Virus record (IMG/VR): IMGVR_UViG_3300042876_000459
Coordinates: 1-35,494 of that record
From: a virus
Direction: 5' to 3' (one strand)
Length of the DNA stretch: 35,494 nt
Numbering within the stretch: the first letter of the stretch is position 1; each line of letters opens with the position of its first letter. Below, piece after piece: positions 12,990 through 34,160 of this stretch. A model generated the notes under the pieces. It saw only the letters and a list, made by a program, of their open reading frames with translations, did not search any database and was not told the DNA's origin. Made by a program: the position numbers and the translations under genes.

Positions 12990-13549
12990 GTACGAACTAC
13001 ACTCCTGCAGCAACAGACCACGCTACCATACCAATCCCTGACGATGGGGACGACGCGGTAGCGCTTTCGTTTTCTCCTGCATACGAAGCTCTTGCGGACA
13101 ACATCGAGTTTACGCGAGGGCAGTACAAGGAAGTGTCATTCAACATGTATGCCAGCGCTGCATACACGGCGCTGGTGGAAACGAACTCTCACACGTATGG
13201 GACTGGCGATTACAACATCAACTCCTCAGGGATAGCCGTTCGGACTGGCGATGTTATTGACATAAGCCTGAACTGCAATCTGGTGACAGGAGCTTCAATC
13301 ACGCATGGTTACGTGAGGCTAGCTACCCAAATAGGGGCCGGAGCTGTAACTGCTATTGATGGTTCAGAGACAATATGCCAGGAGTCATTGAACGTCCCGT
13401 TGCACATGCGAGCTACCAAAGAGCTTGTGTTCATCGGAGGCCCGAGCACGGTGAAGGTTTGGGTTCAGGCACTAACAATTGCTGGATCTAACAACGTGAC
13501 TGTGGACGGCCCATTCAACGCAACGATCTCGATACGGAGGGCGCTGTGA
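12986..13549 (+). CDS. Putative tail fibre / appendage protein
   Basis: 187 residues from ATG 12986 (ATGA overlap). It is strand-rich with no membrane segment: an N-terminal Thr/Asp-rich arm ([19 protein letters not shown]), then a beta-sandwich-like body ending [16 protein letters not shown]. The region holds only fibre-type genes from here to 17587, so a role in the distal tail or receptor contact is likely. No family recognised. Confidence 0.55.
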
Positions 13550-13890
13550 CCAAGGCTGCCTACGACGCGACCATTAGTGCTACACTAGCAGGGCCGGCAG
13601 GTCCTGCTGGAGCGATGGGAGCCGTAGGACCAACCGGCCCCACTGGTCCAACCGGGCCTACAGGGCCGACTGGAGCGACAGGGGCTACAGGAAGCGTTGG
13701 TCCAACCGGGCCTACAGGGGCCACGGGCAGCGCTGGAGCCACAGGAGCAACGGGGCCTGACGTGTCATTGTATCCTGACTATTCAATACCTTACTGGAAT
13801 GGTTCTGCGTGGACCTATCTAGAACTGGCCGTTGGGTTGTCGTTGGTCCTTAGGCACGATGGTTCAGCCCCATATTGGGAGGTTCTTTGA
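13546..13890 (+). CDS. Collagen-like fibre protein 1
   Basis: 114 residues, GTG start in a GTGA overlap. A short N-terminus ([15 protein letters not shown]) leads into about 19 consecutive Gly-X-Y triplets (residues ~16-72), mainly GPT, GPA and GAT. A ~42-residue C-terminal domain ([19 protein letters not shown]) probably serves as a trimerisation or tip domain. Gly-X-Y repeats of this type form collagen-like triple helices in phage fibres. The Thr-rich Y position, in place of hydroxyproline, is usual for bacterial and phage versions. Confidence 0.8.
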
Positions 13891-14216
13891 TGGCATGGAT
13901 CGACGGAATCTCTGGTAGCACAGGCCCCACCGGTCCCACTGGCCCTGCAGGACCTTATGGCCCAACAGGCCCGACAGGGGCAAGCCCGACAGGACCGACG
14001 GGCCCTACCGGAAGTGCTGGCGCTACGGGCCCCACTGGTCCCACCGGCCCCACTGGTTCTACGGGCCCCACCGGCGCTGGCCCTACCGCTGCTGCGTCAG
14101 TCATATTCTACGTATATAGCGGCGCGCTCGTAGCGTTGCAAGGGAGTGAGGGGCAAGTAGTCCTTGGAACCAACTACGAGACAAACAAGGACATCACATG
14201 GGGAGCCGAGCCATGA
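13890..14216 (+). CDS. Collagen-like fibre protein 2
   Basis: 108 residues from ATG 13890, which overlaps the previous stop (TGATG). It opens [10 protein letters not shown], almost the same as the start of the next gene ([11 protein letters not shown]), then has about 19 Gly-X-Y triplets. One break (GAS PT GPT, near residue 36) breaks the triplet phase. The C-terminal ~40 residues ([18 protein letters not shown]) are hydrophobic and strand-like, without collagen repeats. A phase break usually introduces a kink in a triple helix. Confidence 0.78.
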
Positions 14217-14548
14217 CATGGCTTGACTCTATACTAGAGGGCAGCAACGTTGCCGGCCCGACTGGCCCGACAGGCGCCACAGGCCCGACAGGTCCGACGG
14301 GTCCCACAGGTGCCACAGGCCCGACAGGTCCGACGGGTCCCACAGGAGCTACAGGCCCGACAGGGGCCACCGGTAGCGCTGGAGCCACAGGAGCAACGGG
14401 GCCAGCGGGCCCTGACACTACTGGATGGGCAGCTGGGGACATGATCGGGACAAACGGTAGCGGCACTACAATTAGAATCCCTGGGGTTGCTGGCTCGACA
14501 CATCTAAAGATCTCAAGTGGTACGCCCACCTGGACGGAGTTCTCATGA
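14213..14548 (+). CDS. Collagen-like fibre protein 3
   Basis: 111 residues. The ATG at 14213 is preferred over 14198 because it gives the standard ATGA overlap and an N-terminus ([11 protein letters not shown]) that aligns with the previous gene. About 18 unbroken Gly-X-Y triplets follow, including a near-exact 36-base tandem repeat at 14276-14347. The C-terminal domain ([17 protein letters not shown]...WTEFS) is unrelated to those of the two sister genes. Shared repeats with distinct tips suggest different minor fibres or tips on one fibre type. Confidence 0.78.
14276..14347 (+). repeat. Two copies of a 36-base collagen-coding repeat
   Basis: Units 14276-14311 and 14312-14347 are almost identical and encode [12 protein letters not shown] blocks. 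A separate stretch of more than 25 bases (AGCGCTGGAGCCACAGGAGC and onward) is shared between this gene near 14377 and the first collagen-like gene near 13731. This indicates exchange or duplication at the DNA level. Confidence 0.7.
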
Positions 14549-30620: not shown

Positions 30621-31502
30621 ATGAGCGAAGCTGACAAGACGGAAACAGGCATAGTCAAGTTCGACAACGACGAGTTCCGTATGCGCGATGTCGATGTGGC
30701 CCGTCGACTGGAGTTCAAGGAACCAAGAGCTATCCGAAAGCTCATTAAGCGACACAAGTTGGAACTGCAAGAGTTTGGGGATCTACCCATGCGGGACACC
30801 GTGTCCCGCATCGAGAAAACAGGCGCAATTCGCGGGATCGAGGAGCGCAAGTATTACGAGTACTGGCTCAACAAGGACCAGATCACTCTAATCTCTGTAC
30901 TGAGCGAGCAACCCAACGGGACCAAGCTGGCTGTAGCTATCATCAAGGACATCAATGCTCTAACCGCCAAGGTCAAGGAGCTTGAGCAACAGCTTGCGGG
31001 GCACATCGTTCACATCCCAATGGTGTCCAGGTTCCTCCTGGAGTCCGCAAAGGATTGGGAACTGCTCTGGGCAACGGATGTTCGAGAGGCTGTCGGACGC
31101 GTCTATGGCTGGAAGATCAAGGACACGAAGTTCCCTGTGTACATGGGGAACATCATCGGGAAGATCTATGACATCGTCATCGGCAAGGAATTGATGGACG
31201 AGGCAAGGAAACGCCAGGATGAGTCTGGCGGCCACGACAGCGCTCTCCTGCATCAATTCTTTACTGATGAGATGCGCGAACTATTCAAGCGCAAGCTGGA
31301 CACCGTGTGGGGCATCGCAAAGCTGTCCAGGGATCCTAACGAGTTCTGGGGCCAAATGTGCCACGTGTTCAAGCAAGACGCGATGCAGATGGTGCTGTTC
31401 GACGCGCCAGGATTCTGCACTAAATGCGGAGCACCGTCCCAGCCAGATTGGAAGGTGTGCGCATATTGCGGCAAGTCTACGAAGTCCAAGAGGGCACAAT
31501 GA
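30621..31502 (+). CDS. Rha/P63C-domain phage regulatory protein with C-terminal zinc ribbon
   Basis: 293 residues after GGAGGAGGGTGGACG. The N-terminal ~110 residues (FRMRDVDVARRLEFKEPRAIRKLIKRH... YYEYWLNKDQITLISVLSEQPNGTKL) match Rha/KilA-type phage regulators. The middle (~145-250: VYGWKIKDTKFPVYMGNIIGKIYDIVI, LLHQFFTDEMRELFKRKLDTV) matches the P63C domain. CTKCG...CAYCG at 266-283 is a zinc ribbon. Such proteins are common in phage early regions and interfere with host or phage regulation; exact targets are not known. Confidence 0.7.
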   Translation: MSEADKTETGIVKFDNDEFRMRDVDVARRLEFKEPRAIRKLIKRHKLELQEFGDLPMRDTVSRIEKTGAIRGIEERKYYEYWLNKDQITLISVLSEQPNGTKLAVAIIKDINALTAKVKELEQQLAGHIVHIPMVSRFLLESAKDWELLWATDVREAVGRVYGWKIKDTKFPVYMGNIIGKIYDIVIGKELMDEARKRQDESGGHDSALLHQFFTDEMRELFKRKLDTVWGIAKLSRDPNEFWGQMCHVFKQDAMQMVLFDAPGFCTKCGAPSQPDWKVCAYCGKSTKSKRAQ

Positions 31503-32433: not shown

Positions 32434-33426
32434 ATGGCGTATCGCAAGGTGGACTGCAGGGTATGGGCTGATGCTAAGTTCGCCAGGCTGTCTGACGAGG
32501 CGAAGCTACTGTGGTTCTACTTGATGACTTGCCCCGAAACGACAAGCCTGCCTGGGGTCATAGTGGCGGGCCCAGCTGGGATGGCTGAGGCGCTCGGATG
32601 GGACCTGAAAGGGTTTGGCAAAGGGTTTGGGGAACTGTTTAGGGAAGGGTTAGCCAAAGCCTCCTGGCAACCCCCCCGGAACGGTTCCGAGGTGGCTTTC
32701 GGGAAGGGTCGTTTGGTGTGGCTTCCGAACGCTTGGAAGTACAATCGGCCTGAGAACCCGAACGTGGTTTTGGGGTGGGGAAAGCACTGGGACGTAGTGC
32801 CCGAGTGTCCACTGAAAGATGAGATATATCAAGTGCTTGAATCCTTTACCAAAGGGTTAGGCAAAGGGTTTGCGGAAGCCTTTCGAAAGGGTTGCCCAAA
32901 GGGTTCCCCAAACGGTTTGGCAAATCAGGATCCGGATCCGGAGCAGGAACAGGAACCATTTCAGAGAGAGATACACGATGCCGCAAGCGGCCCGTGTGAC
33001 CCCATCCCTGCCGAGCCTGTGACACCCAAACGGACCCGAGCTGCCAAGCCAGAGAAGCCAGCACCCGAGCCCACCGGTTTCGTCCAGGTTCGTGACTGCT
33101 GGTTCCAGGTGTTCGAATCTAACCGTGGCTGCAAGCCTGCCTTCGATGCCCGTGATGGTAAGGCTATCAATACATTGCTCGCAAAGCTCGGAGAGCAGAG
33201 AGCGTGCGAGGCCATCCGCAATGCTTTCACGGACTCGTGGTGGGCTGCCAATAGAGCCTCGTTGCCAGACCTTGCAAGCAACCCTAACCCGCACCTAGGT
33301 GCCAAGCCTCGCATCAACGGCAAGCAAGGCCTCCTGCAGCCGTCCGCAGGCAAGCAATGGGGCGAAACTGCGCAAGCTCCAACGGAAGCCGAGTGGTCGG
33401 AGTTCGAAAAGAAAGGCCTGTTCTGA
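32434..33426 (+). CDS. Phage replication initiator-like protein
   Basis: 330 residues; GGGAGGCGAGGGAC supplies the ribosome binding site. The N-terminal ~120 residues (VWADAKFARLSDEAKLLWFYLMTCPETTSLPGVIVAG... LVWLPNAWKYNRPENPN) are a winged-helix replisome-organiser type domain. It continues through a KG-rich repeat zone (~58-165), then a DPDPEQEQEP linker and a C-terminal helical domain (CWFQVFESNRGCKPAFDARDGKAINTLLAKLG) that may bind the helicase loader encoded next. Iteron-like DNA repeats lie within the gene, as the origin lies inside lambda O. Confidence 0.72.
   Translation: MAYRKVDCRVWADAKFARLSDEAKLLWFYLMTCPETTSLPGVIVAGPAGMAEALGWDLKGFGKGFGELFREGLAKASWQPPRNGSEVAFGKGRLVWLPNAWKYNRPENPNVVLGWGKHWDVVPECPLKDEIYQVLESFTKGLGKGFAEAFRKGCPKGSPNGLANQDPDPEQEQEPFQREIHDAASGPCDPIPAEPVTPKRTRAAKPEKPAPEPTGFVQVRDCWFQVFESNRGCKPAFDARDGKAINTLLAKLGEQRACEAIRNAFTDSWWAANRASLPDLASNPNPHLGAKPRINGKQGLLQPSAGKQWGETAQAPTEAEWSEFEKKGLF
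32608..32917 (+). repeat. Iteron-like AAAGGGTT repeats, candidate origin
   Basis: Exact AAAGGGTT at 32608, 32620, 32851, 32863, 32886 and 32898, plus AAACGGTT at 32910. Steps within clusters are 12 bases (one step is 23). The first four copies read AAA-GGG-TT. in the gene frame, but those at 32886 and 32898 read .A-AAG-GGT-T, shifted one base. An AT-rich GAGATATATC (32821-32830) lies between the clusters. Confidence 0.6.
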
Positions 33427-34160
33427 TGACTTTTGACATCGAAGAAGTGTTCGGCACTGGCCCATGGGCGTGCCACTGTGGAGAGCTTATAGACTGGCCT
33501 GGAGCCTGCGATAGGTGCGCAGCGAAGTGGCAGCGTCAGCGCGAGGGCGAGGAGGCTCAGGCAGCCTTGAGCACCATTCCTGACCGCTTCGTGTGGGCGA
33601 AGTTCTCAGCTCCTGAGTTTGCCGTCCGAGTCAACCCGCTCCAGTCGAGGGCCGCACGGCTTGGCTTCCACGACTTGCTGCAGCCTGACAGGGCGAAGGA
33701 TTCGATGGTGATATGCGGAGAGTCAGGAGCAGGCAAGACGACAATCGCTGTTGCTCTCATGCACCAGCTTGTTTCGAAGCTCCCTGATATTGGCATCAGA
33801 GCTCGGTTTGCCTCAGCCATCGAACTGGGAAAGTCCAGGGTCGAGTGTCAGTACGGAAGCAGGCCGCAGATCGTCGAGATGTGCAACCGCGCTTCGATTC
33901 TGTTTCTGGACGATCTCGGAGCAGAATCGGCTAGCAATAAAGACCCTATCGTCGAGGTCATACAGGCTCGCCACGATGCGAACAAGGTCACTGTGTACAC
34001 GACCTGGCAAACCCGGCCGCAGATAGCACAGCGATATGGTGGAGGAGTGGAACGGCGCATATACGAGCGAGGCATAGTGATTGATGTCGCAAAGTACGAG
34101 CCTGGATACAAGCCGCTCGGAGGAGAGCCGCTTCGCAACGCGAAAGGAGAGATCGCATGA
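33426..34160 (+). CDS. DnaC/IstB-like AAA+ helicase loader
   Basis: 244 residues from ATG 33426 (TGATG overlap with the initiator). The N-terminus has CHCGELIDWPGACDRC, a possible zinc site. Walker A is GESGAGKT (98-105), Walker B ILFLDDLG (158-165), sensor 1 region VYTTW (190-194), and Arg210/Arg211 (GGVERRIYER) are in the arginine-finger position typical of DnaC-like loaders. It would load the host replicative helicase at the phage origin. The immediate initiator neighbour supports this, as in lambda O-P. Confidence 0.85.
   Translation: MTFDIEEVFGTGPWACHCGELIDWPGACDRCAAKWQRQREGEEAQAALSTIPDRFVWAKFSAPEFAVRVNPLQSRAARLGFHDLLQPDRAKDSMVICGESGAGKTTIAVALMHQLVSKLPDIGIRARFASAIELGKSRVECQYGSRPQIVEMCNRASILFLDDLGAESASNKDPIVEVIQARHDANKVTVYTTWQTRPQIAQRYGGGVERRIYERGIVIDVAKYEPGYKPLGGEPLRNAKGEIA

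Follow-up and report, generated by a model that had tools for sequence, protein, structure and literature searches.

Candidate iterons of a probable intragenic replication origin within the linker and predicted recognition-helix codons of a phage initiator gene

The 35,494-bp viral sequence studied here (IMG/VR record IMGVR_UViG_3300042876_000459; hereafter referred to as the window) carries, within the gene for a predicted winged-helix replication initiator, two clusters of a short DNA site, and the comparison with 101 relatives strongly supports selection on the DNA of these sites over selection on the KG peptide that they encode in the window. We consider it probable (about 0.8), judging from the sequences and from the analogy with known replicons, that the array consists of iterons bound by the winged helix of the initiator itself, and that it forms, or is the core of, an origin located inside the initiator gene.

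The octamer AAAGGGTT is present in the window in six exact copies, all on the + strand and all confined to positions 32608-32905, inside one gene (Table 1), against 0.44 copies expected from shuffled sequences; none of 100 shuffles reached six copies. A preliminary description of this DNA had placed these copies in two clusters with steps of approximately 12 bp inside the initiator gene and had proposed that the octamer stays unchanged in two codon registers, and both statements were borne out. The first four copies are read AAA-GGG-TT (phase 0), while the last two lie one base out and are read A-AAG-GGT-T (phase 2). When synonymous codons were shuffled within the gene and the protein was held constant, no more than four copies arose in 20,000 trials. 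The single near copy that had been described is present as well; a second forward copy with one mismatch exists besides it, so that the pair comprises GAAGGGTT and AAACGGTT. Weaker copies (GAACTGTTT, GAATCCTTT and GAAGCCTTT) fill the 12-bp grid, and the change of register within the array comes about through a single 11-bp step (32875 to 32886). Counted as a 7-bp core of the type AA-SSS-TT, the two clusters contain nine canonical cores, and the stretch of the gene between them contains two more.

Table 1. Positions of the repeat sites and of associated features in the window
Feature	Position	Strand	Remarks
Initiator gene, 330 aa	32434..33426	+	ORF; predicted winged-helix N-domain, disordered linker, helical C-domain
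Codons of residues 58-70, predicted recognition helix H3	32605..32643	+	AlphaFold2 model
Site 1, AAAGGGTT	32608..32615	+	Cluster 1, read KGF
Site 2, AAAGGGTT	32620..32627	+	Cluster 1, read KGF
Degenerate copy GAACTGTTT	32632..32640	+	Cluster 1, 12-bp grid position
Near copy GAAGGGTT	32644..32651	+	Closes cluster 1; read EGL; 7-bp core exact
Additional core AACGGTT	32680..32686	+	Inside a 12-residue insertion missing from relatives
Asn108 codon	32755..32757	+	Residue covarying with site type; outside both clusters
Degenerate copy GAATCCTTT	32839..32847	+	Cluster 2, first grid position
AAAGGGTT site	32851..32858	+	Cluster 2, read KGL
AAAGGGTT site	32863..32870	+	Cluster 2, read KGF
GAAGCCTTT	32875..32883	+	Cluster 2; form used by most relatives; read EAF
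AAAGGGTT site	32886..32893	+	Cluster 2, shifted register, read (R)KG(C)
AAAGGGTT site	32898..32905	+	Cluster 2, shifted register, read (P)KG(S)
Near copy AAACGGTT	32910..32917	+	Last of cluster 2, read (P)NG(L)
QDPDPEQEQE tract	32926..32955	+	Immediately follows the array; corresponds to the purine-rich (CAGGAR)n / QEQE tract in relatives
DnaC/IstB-like helicase loader gene	33426..34160	+	PHROG 50 E 1.8e-15; Pfam IstB_IS21 E 1.2e-6

The encoded protein matches the profiles PHROG 25711 (E 1e-12) and PHROG 1701 ('DnaD-like helicase loader'; E 1.8e-11, residues 2-174), and in addition PHROG 6251 and 8064; a search of the Pfam collection matched no family. An AlphaFold2 model computed from 75 sequences gives pLDDT values of mostly ~90-97 for residues 11-150, except for an insertion at residues 81-90. 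The order of its elements (helix 21-32, strand 42-44, helices 47-54 and 58-70, wing strand 94-96, helices up to residue 153, then a disordered linker before the helical C-domain) is that of a protein whose N-domain is modeled as a winged helix. The recognition helix of winged-helix proteins is the third helix, and H3 (residues 58-70) is by its topology the predicted recognition helix. Since this helix is the third of the winged helix, cluster 1, with sites at residues 59-61, 63-65 and 71-73, lies over the predicted recognition-helix codons and where they end. Cluster 2 covers the end of the N-domain codons and the codons of the linker. The DnaC-like loader that had been noted next to the initiator is recognized by both profile collections (Table 1), and the start of its gene overlaps the stop of the initiator gene.

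Several features of the window lie beside this array. The wing region contains an insertion of 12 residues (QPPRNGSEVAFG; window positions 32665-32703, residues 78-90) that is missing from the aligned relatives; the core AACGGTT (position 32680) lies within it, and AAGGGT (position 32704) comes after it. Upstream of the replication genes, positions 30621-31499 encode a protein with weak P63C, pRha-like and zinc-ribbon matches. Three adjacent ORFs at positions 13546-14548 carry collagen-like G-P-T repeats, which are encoded by tandem repeats of 9, 18, 27, 36 and 54 bp.

A search of IMG/VR with the single protein yielded no relatives; an alignment query succeeded. Relatives drawn in this way from IMG/VR and from GTDB genomes, most of them metagenomic sequences, were clustered at 85% identity into 101 representatives; only two annotated phages carry the N-domain at this level of similarity. 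The 7-bp core AA-SSS-TT is found in these 101 non-redundant relatives at the same two places of the gene, the H3 codons and the linker, with up to nine canonical sites per gene. Fewer canonical sites are present in an enterobacterial clade, which, judged by its repeats, may use a variant site. AAGCCTT is the core of most phages and, by unbiased counting, the commonest shared core; in the helix codons it is translated as E/K-A-F, and in those of the linker frequently as K-P-S or K-A-S. At the equivalent positions the window has AAGGGTT, read K-G-F and K-G-S/C, so that one DNA change, CC to GG, replaces Ala by Gly in one register and Pro by Gly in the other. Across the collection, AAGCCTT sites encode EAF/KAF and KPS, AAGGGTT sites encode KGF and KGS/KGC, and inverted or shifted sites encode EPF, GTL and NPL.

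We also searched IMG/VR at the DNA level. The pattern AAAGGGTT-N4-AAAGGGTT, which sets two octamers 12 bp apart, returned 100 stretches, among which the N-domain profile recognized more than 10 winged-helix initiators, and in these the octamer is read KGF, xKG(L/S), EPF, GTLS or NPL. A single gene (L131) uses the readings GTLS, GTLS, EPF, KGF, KGF and EPF. A degenerate triple-site pattern returned just three stretches. Of nine proteins encoded downstream of the initiator in relatives, six proved to be DnaB-like helicases.

Individual relatives add further detail. Two related initiators, those of Citrobacter phage Chris1 and Actinobacillus phage vB_Apl-pPE4, possess a DnaT C-domain and are 36-38% identical over the N-domain; the two places that carry the clusters in the window carry site-like repeats in them as well, but these depart from the canonical core (TAAGGC/GCCTTA variants), and an extra set lies at the start of the gene. 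In the two cultured relatives (L004:2941-3000 and L005:2947-3006), a group of TAAGGC/GCCTTA-type repeats occupies the first 60 bp of the gene. A relative on a contig almost as long as the window (35,480 bp; IMGVR_UViG_3300018914_000006) has 51% N-domain identity, yet AAGCCTT sites. In three relatives (L242, L278 and L169), AACCGTT or AACCCTT cores over linker and helix codons have TTCGAAA between them, read VSK, FRK or FET, and the spacers look conserved in these sequences, too. More distant winged-helix phage proteins (L196:5260-6354, L198 and L114) contain tandem AAAGGGTT copies, read KGS, in the linker only, which suggests that the tandem-site habit extends past this initiator family.

The sites are concentrated at the two places in the gene. 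The density of AA[CG]{3}TT in the 101 phages amounts to 35.2 per kb in the H3 codons and 29.7 per kb in the linker; it falls to 0.70 per kb elsewhere in the gene and to 0.46 per kb beyond the gene. Steps within clusters are mostly 12 bp (n = 254), followed by 24 bp (n = 34), 11 bp (n = 18) and 23 bp (n = 12), and the commonest core type accounts on average for 93% of the sites in a phage. Since unbiased tests of the top 8-mer in single genes were often individually non-significant, we used pooled tests. Synonymous shuffling, which leaves the proteins unchanged, gave 66 and 88 sites (maxima 79 and 106), compared with 204 and 318 observed; such shuffling accounts for about a third of the sites. 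Those 8-mers that the H3 codons and the linker codons have in common out of register numbered 398 (shuffled mean 21, maximum 42), and those in common on opposite strands numbered 477 (mean 56, maximum 83), which is 8 to 19 times the level of the synonymous shuffles. Moreover, the H3 codons of a phage match its own linker better than the linkers of other phages (1246 against a mean of 608 and a maximum of 793 in 2000 permutations).

These data bear directly on the idea that a KG, EAF or KPS peptide was multiplied by selection or slippage and that the DNA repeat is its by-product. Tandem KPS or KAL units in some linkers (e.g., in L038 and L274) do resemble local expansions, and local duplication may add copies. 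Peptide likeness is, however, no source of out-of-register or opposite-strand matches, and we therefore conclude that selection acts on the DNA and not on the KG peptide, as the preliminary description had proposed. One and the same site is read KGF, xKG(S/L), EPF, GTL or NPL across its copies, and the 115 different 5-bp spacers found among 254 steps speak against plain tandem copying. Had the peptide been the target, relatives would be expected to keep KG and lose the octamer; the reverse is seen, in that the shape and the place of the DNA site are kept while the residues vary with it. On the strength of the out-of-register and opposite-strand excess, we rejected a peptide repeat as the main cause and regard it as highly improbable. 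An RNA-level element, be it a structure or a protein-binding site in the mRNA, hardly comes into consideration at all: the sites are transcribed along with the gene, but both site orientations occur within one gene, the six exact octamers in the window all point the same way and hence could not pair with each other, and AA-SSS-TT is strand-symmetric as a class, as is expected for duplex DNA.

A Q/E/D tract directly follows the linker array in 78 of the 101 relatives. Its Gln codons are 426 CAG to 38 CAA, compared with 403 to 293 elsewhere in the gene, and because of this excess of CAG the purine-rich (CAGGAR)n tract may be selected as DNA, too.

The type of site varies together with a residue of the initiator that neither cluster encodes. 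In a ranking of the N-domain columns by how closely they are associated with site type, the top place went to residue 108, above residues 60 and 64, which are themselves encoded by sites. Phages with Ser108 (n = 79) have 382 AAGCCTT sites and 12 others (382/394), whereas in those with Asn108 (n = 22) 101 of 126 sites contain an AAC half and 25 are AAGCCTT. The mutual information between residue 108 and site type is 0.515; in 4000 tree simulations it did not exceed 0.155 (0/4000 as high), and a dependent model for the residue and the site type fitted better (LR 46.6, 4 df). As residue 108 had been picked as the best of about 135 columns, we tested the association on later-fetched relatives, less than 85% identical to the earlier ones: 12 of 14 with Asn108 have non-AAGCCTT sites, and all 11 with Ser108 have AAGCCTT. 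These later sets were fetched by peptide patterns that contain the residue, so that what they probe is the site type conditional on the residue, not how frequent the residue is. The association has exceptions: the tree includes 20 phages with Asn108, and 4 of them carry mostly AAGCCTT. Parsimony places 10 changes between AAGCCTT and other types on this tree, only two of which are forced by well-supported branches; the tree was built from 110 columns, and the majority of its forks have weak support. Because it offered too few path-disjoint pairs for a test of residue 108, we relied on the tree simulation and on the later-fetched relatives.

We read the sites as binding sites of the initiator because they are conserved at the level of duplex DNA, are phased, occur only in this gene and track an initiator residue; going by this pattern, they are very probably bound by the protein encoded there. 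Other proteins with short sites exist, and a host nucleoid protein, a partition protein or another phage protein might occupy the array in place of the initiator. None of our results speaks for this, and both the restriction of the sites to the initiator gene and the manner in which residue 108 follows site type, on the tree as well as in the later samples, argue against it; we consider it improbable.

Two well-studied types of replicon offer parallels. In pSK41, the winged-helix N-domain of the RepA_N protein Rep binds Rep boxes in the central part of the rep gene, the linker between the N- and C-domains is encoded by this array, and the Rep domains resemble DnaD (PMC5703833). The sites of the window and of its relatives are likewise central in the gene and over the linker; unlike those of RepA_N, they have in the window a 7-bp core at 12-bp steps, and a second array lies over the recognition-helix codons. 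No Pfam match to the RepA_N domain was found in the window protein or among 75 aligned members, and PDB sequences searched with a profile yielded no meaningful match. A Foldseek search with the window model produced weak matches (E 0.7-1.9, probability 0.63-0.89) to the initiator and Rep-DNA entries 4pt7, 4pql, 4pta and 5kbj, which we take to be RepA_N domains.

In phage lambda, a proven case, iterons lie inside the initiator gene O, between the codons of the N- and C-domains and beside the gene for a helicase-recruiting protein (PMC7466680). The annotated lambda iterons in gene O fall into codon phases 0, 2, 2 and 1, that is, three phases, and the iteron-like sites over the linker in the window similarly occur in several codon phases; those of lambda, in contrast, are annotated as 18 bp. 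No lambda iteron 8-mer is repeated within codons 1-113 of O, and lambda thus has no array over recognition-helix codons. The window protein gave no match to PHROG 678 ('replication initiation O-like'), the O-type N-domain. The best reading of these comparisons is that the window system resembles lambda O and the RepA_N plasmids but would differ from them by shorter sites and by a second array over the predicted recognition-helix codons. In the open-access literature we came across no account of iterons that lie in the codons of a recognition helix, which does not prove that there is none.

The parallels with lambda O and RepA_N, the helicase or loader neighbors and the covariation with residue 108 are our reasons for reading the array as an origin. 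GC skew, which had been suggested as a means of locating the origin, was uninformative in this respect: over the full window it follows the direction of transcription and points to no origin. Nor was a clear AT-rich unwinding region found beside the array, the AT content in 60-bp intervals peaking at 0.58 (32800-32859). The initiator could also use its sites as operators to regulate its own transcription or the downstream genes, with the origin located elsewhere; binding by its own N-domain, as reflected in residue 108, fits this equally well, and the sites do lie inside a transcribed gene. The usual place of operators is the promoter, however, and here both arrays are within the gene, with up to nine canonical sites per gene at 12-bp steps, in the manner of iteron arrays, and next to genes for a helicase loader or a DnaB helicase. 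We therefore judge an operator function to be unlikely.

In the iteron reading, the site is a short pseudo-palindrome, AA-S-S-S-TT, in which two AA[G/C] half-sites flank one central base. Dimers of the N-domain would bind approximately one site per 12 bp, and binding over both the linker codons and the recognition-helix codons would build a nucleoprotein complex. The C-domain, together with the adjacent loader, DnaC-like in the window, would then bring the helicase; in most of the relatives checked, a DnaB helicase is encoded downstream.

A further and more tentative possibility is that the initiator is self-addressed, i.e., that the DNA of its recognition helix is itself part of the array that it recognizes, so that reader and target would be forced to co-evolve. 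A change of site type would then rewrite helix residues 60 and 64 (Ala to Gly, Pro or Arg), accompanied by the Ser/Asn switch at residue 108. Were this to be true, though at present we would sooner doubt than assert it, such self-addressing would set compatibility groups among these phages.

For a large and almost uncultured family of initiators, the analysis provides a predicted origin, a predicted binding site for each phage and a predicted specificity residue. It also presents a clear natural case in which selection at the level of the DNA overrides the choice of the peptide within the codons of a predicted DNA-reading helix, and thereby gives a route to studying the joint change of an initiator and its sites.
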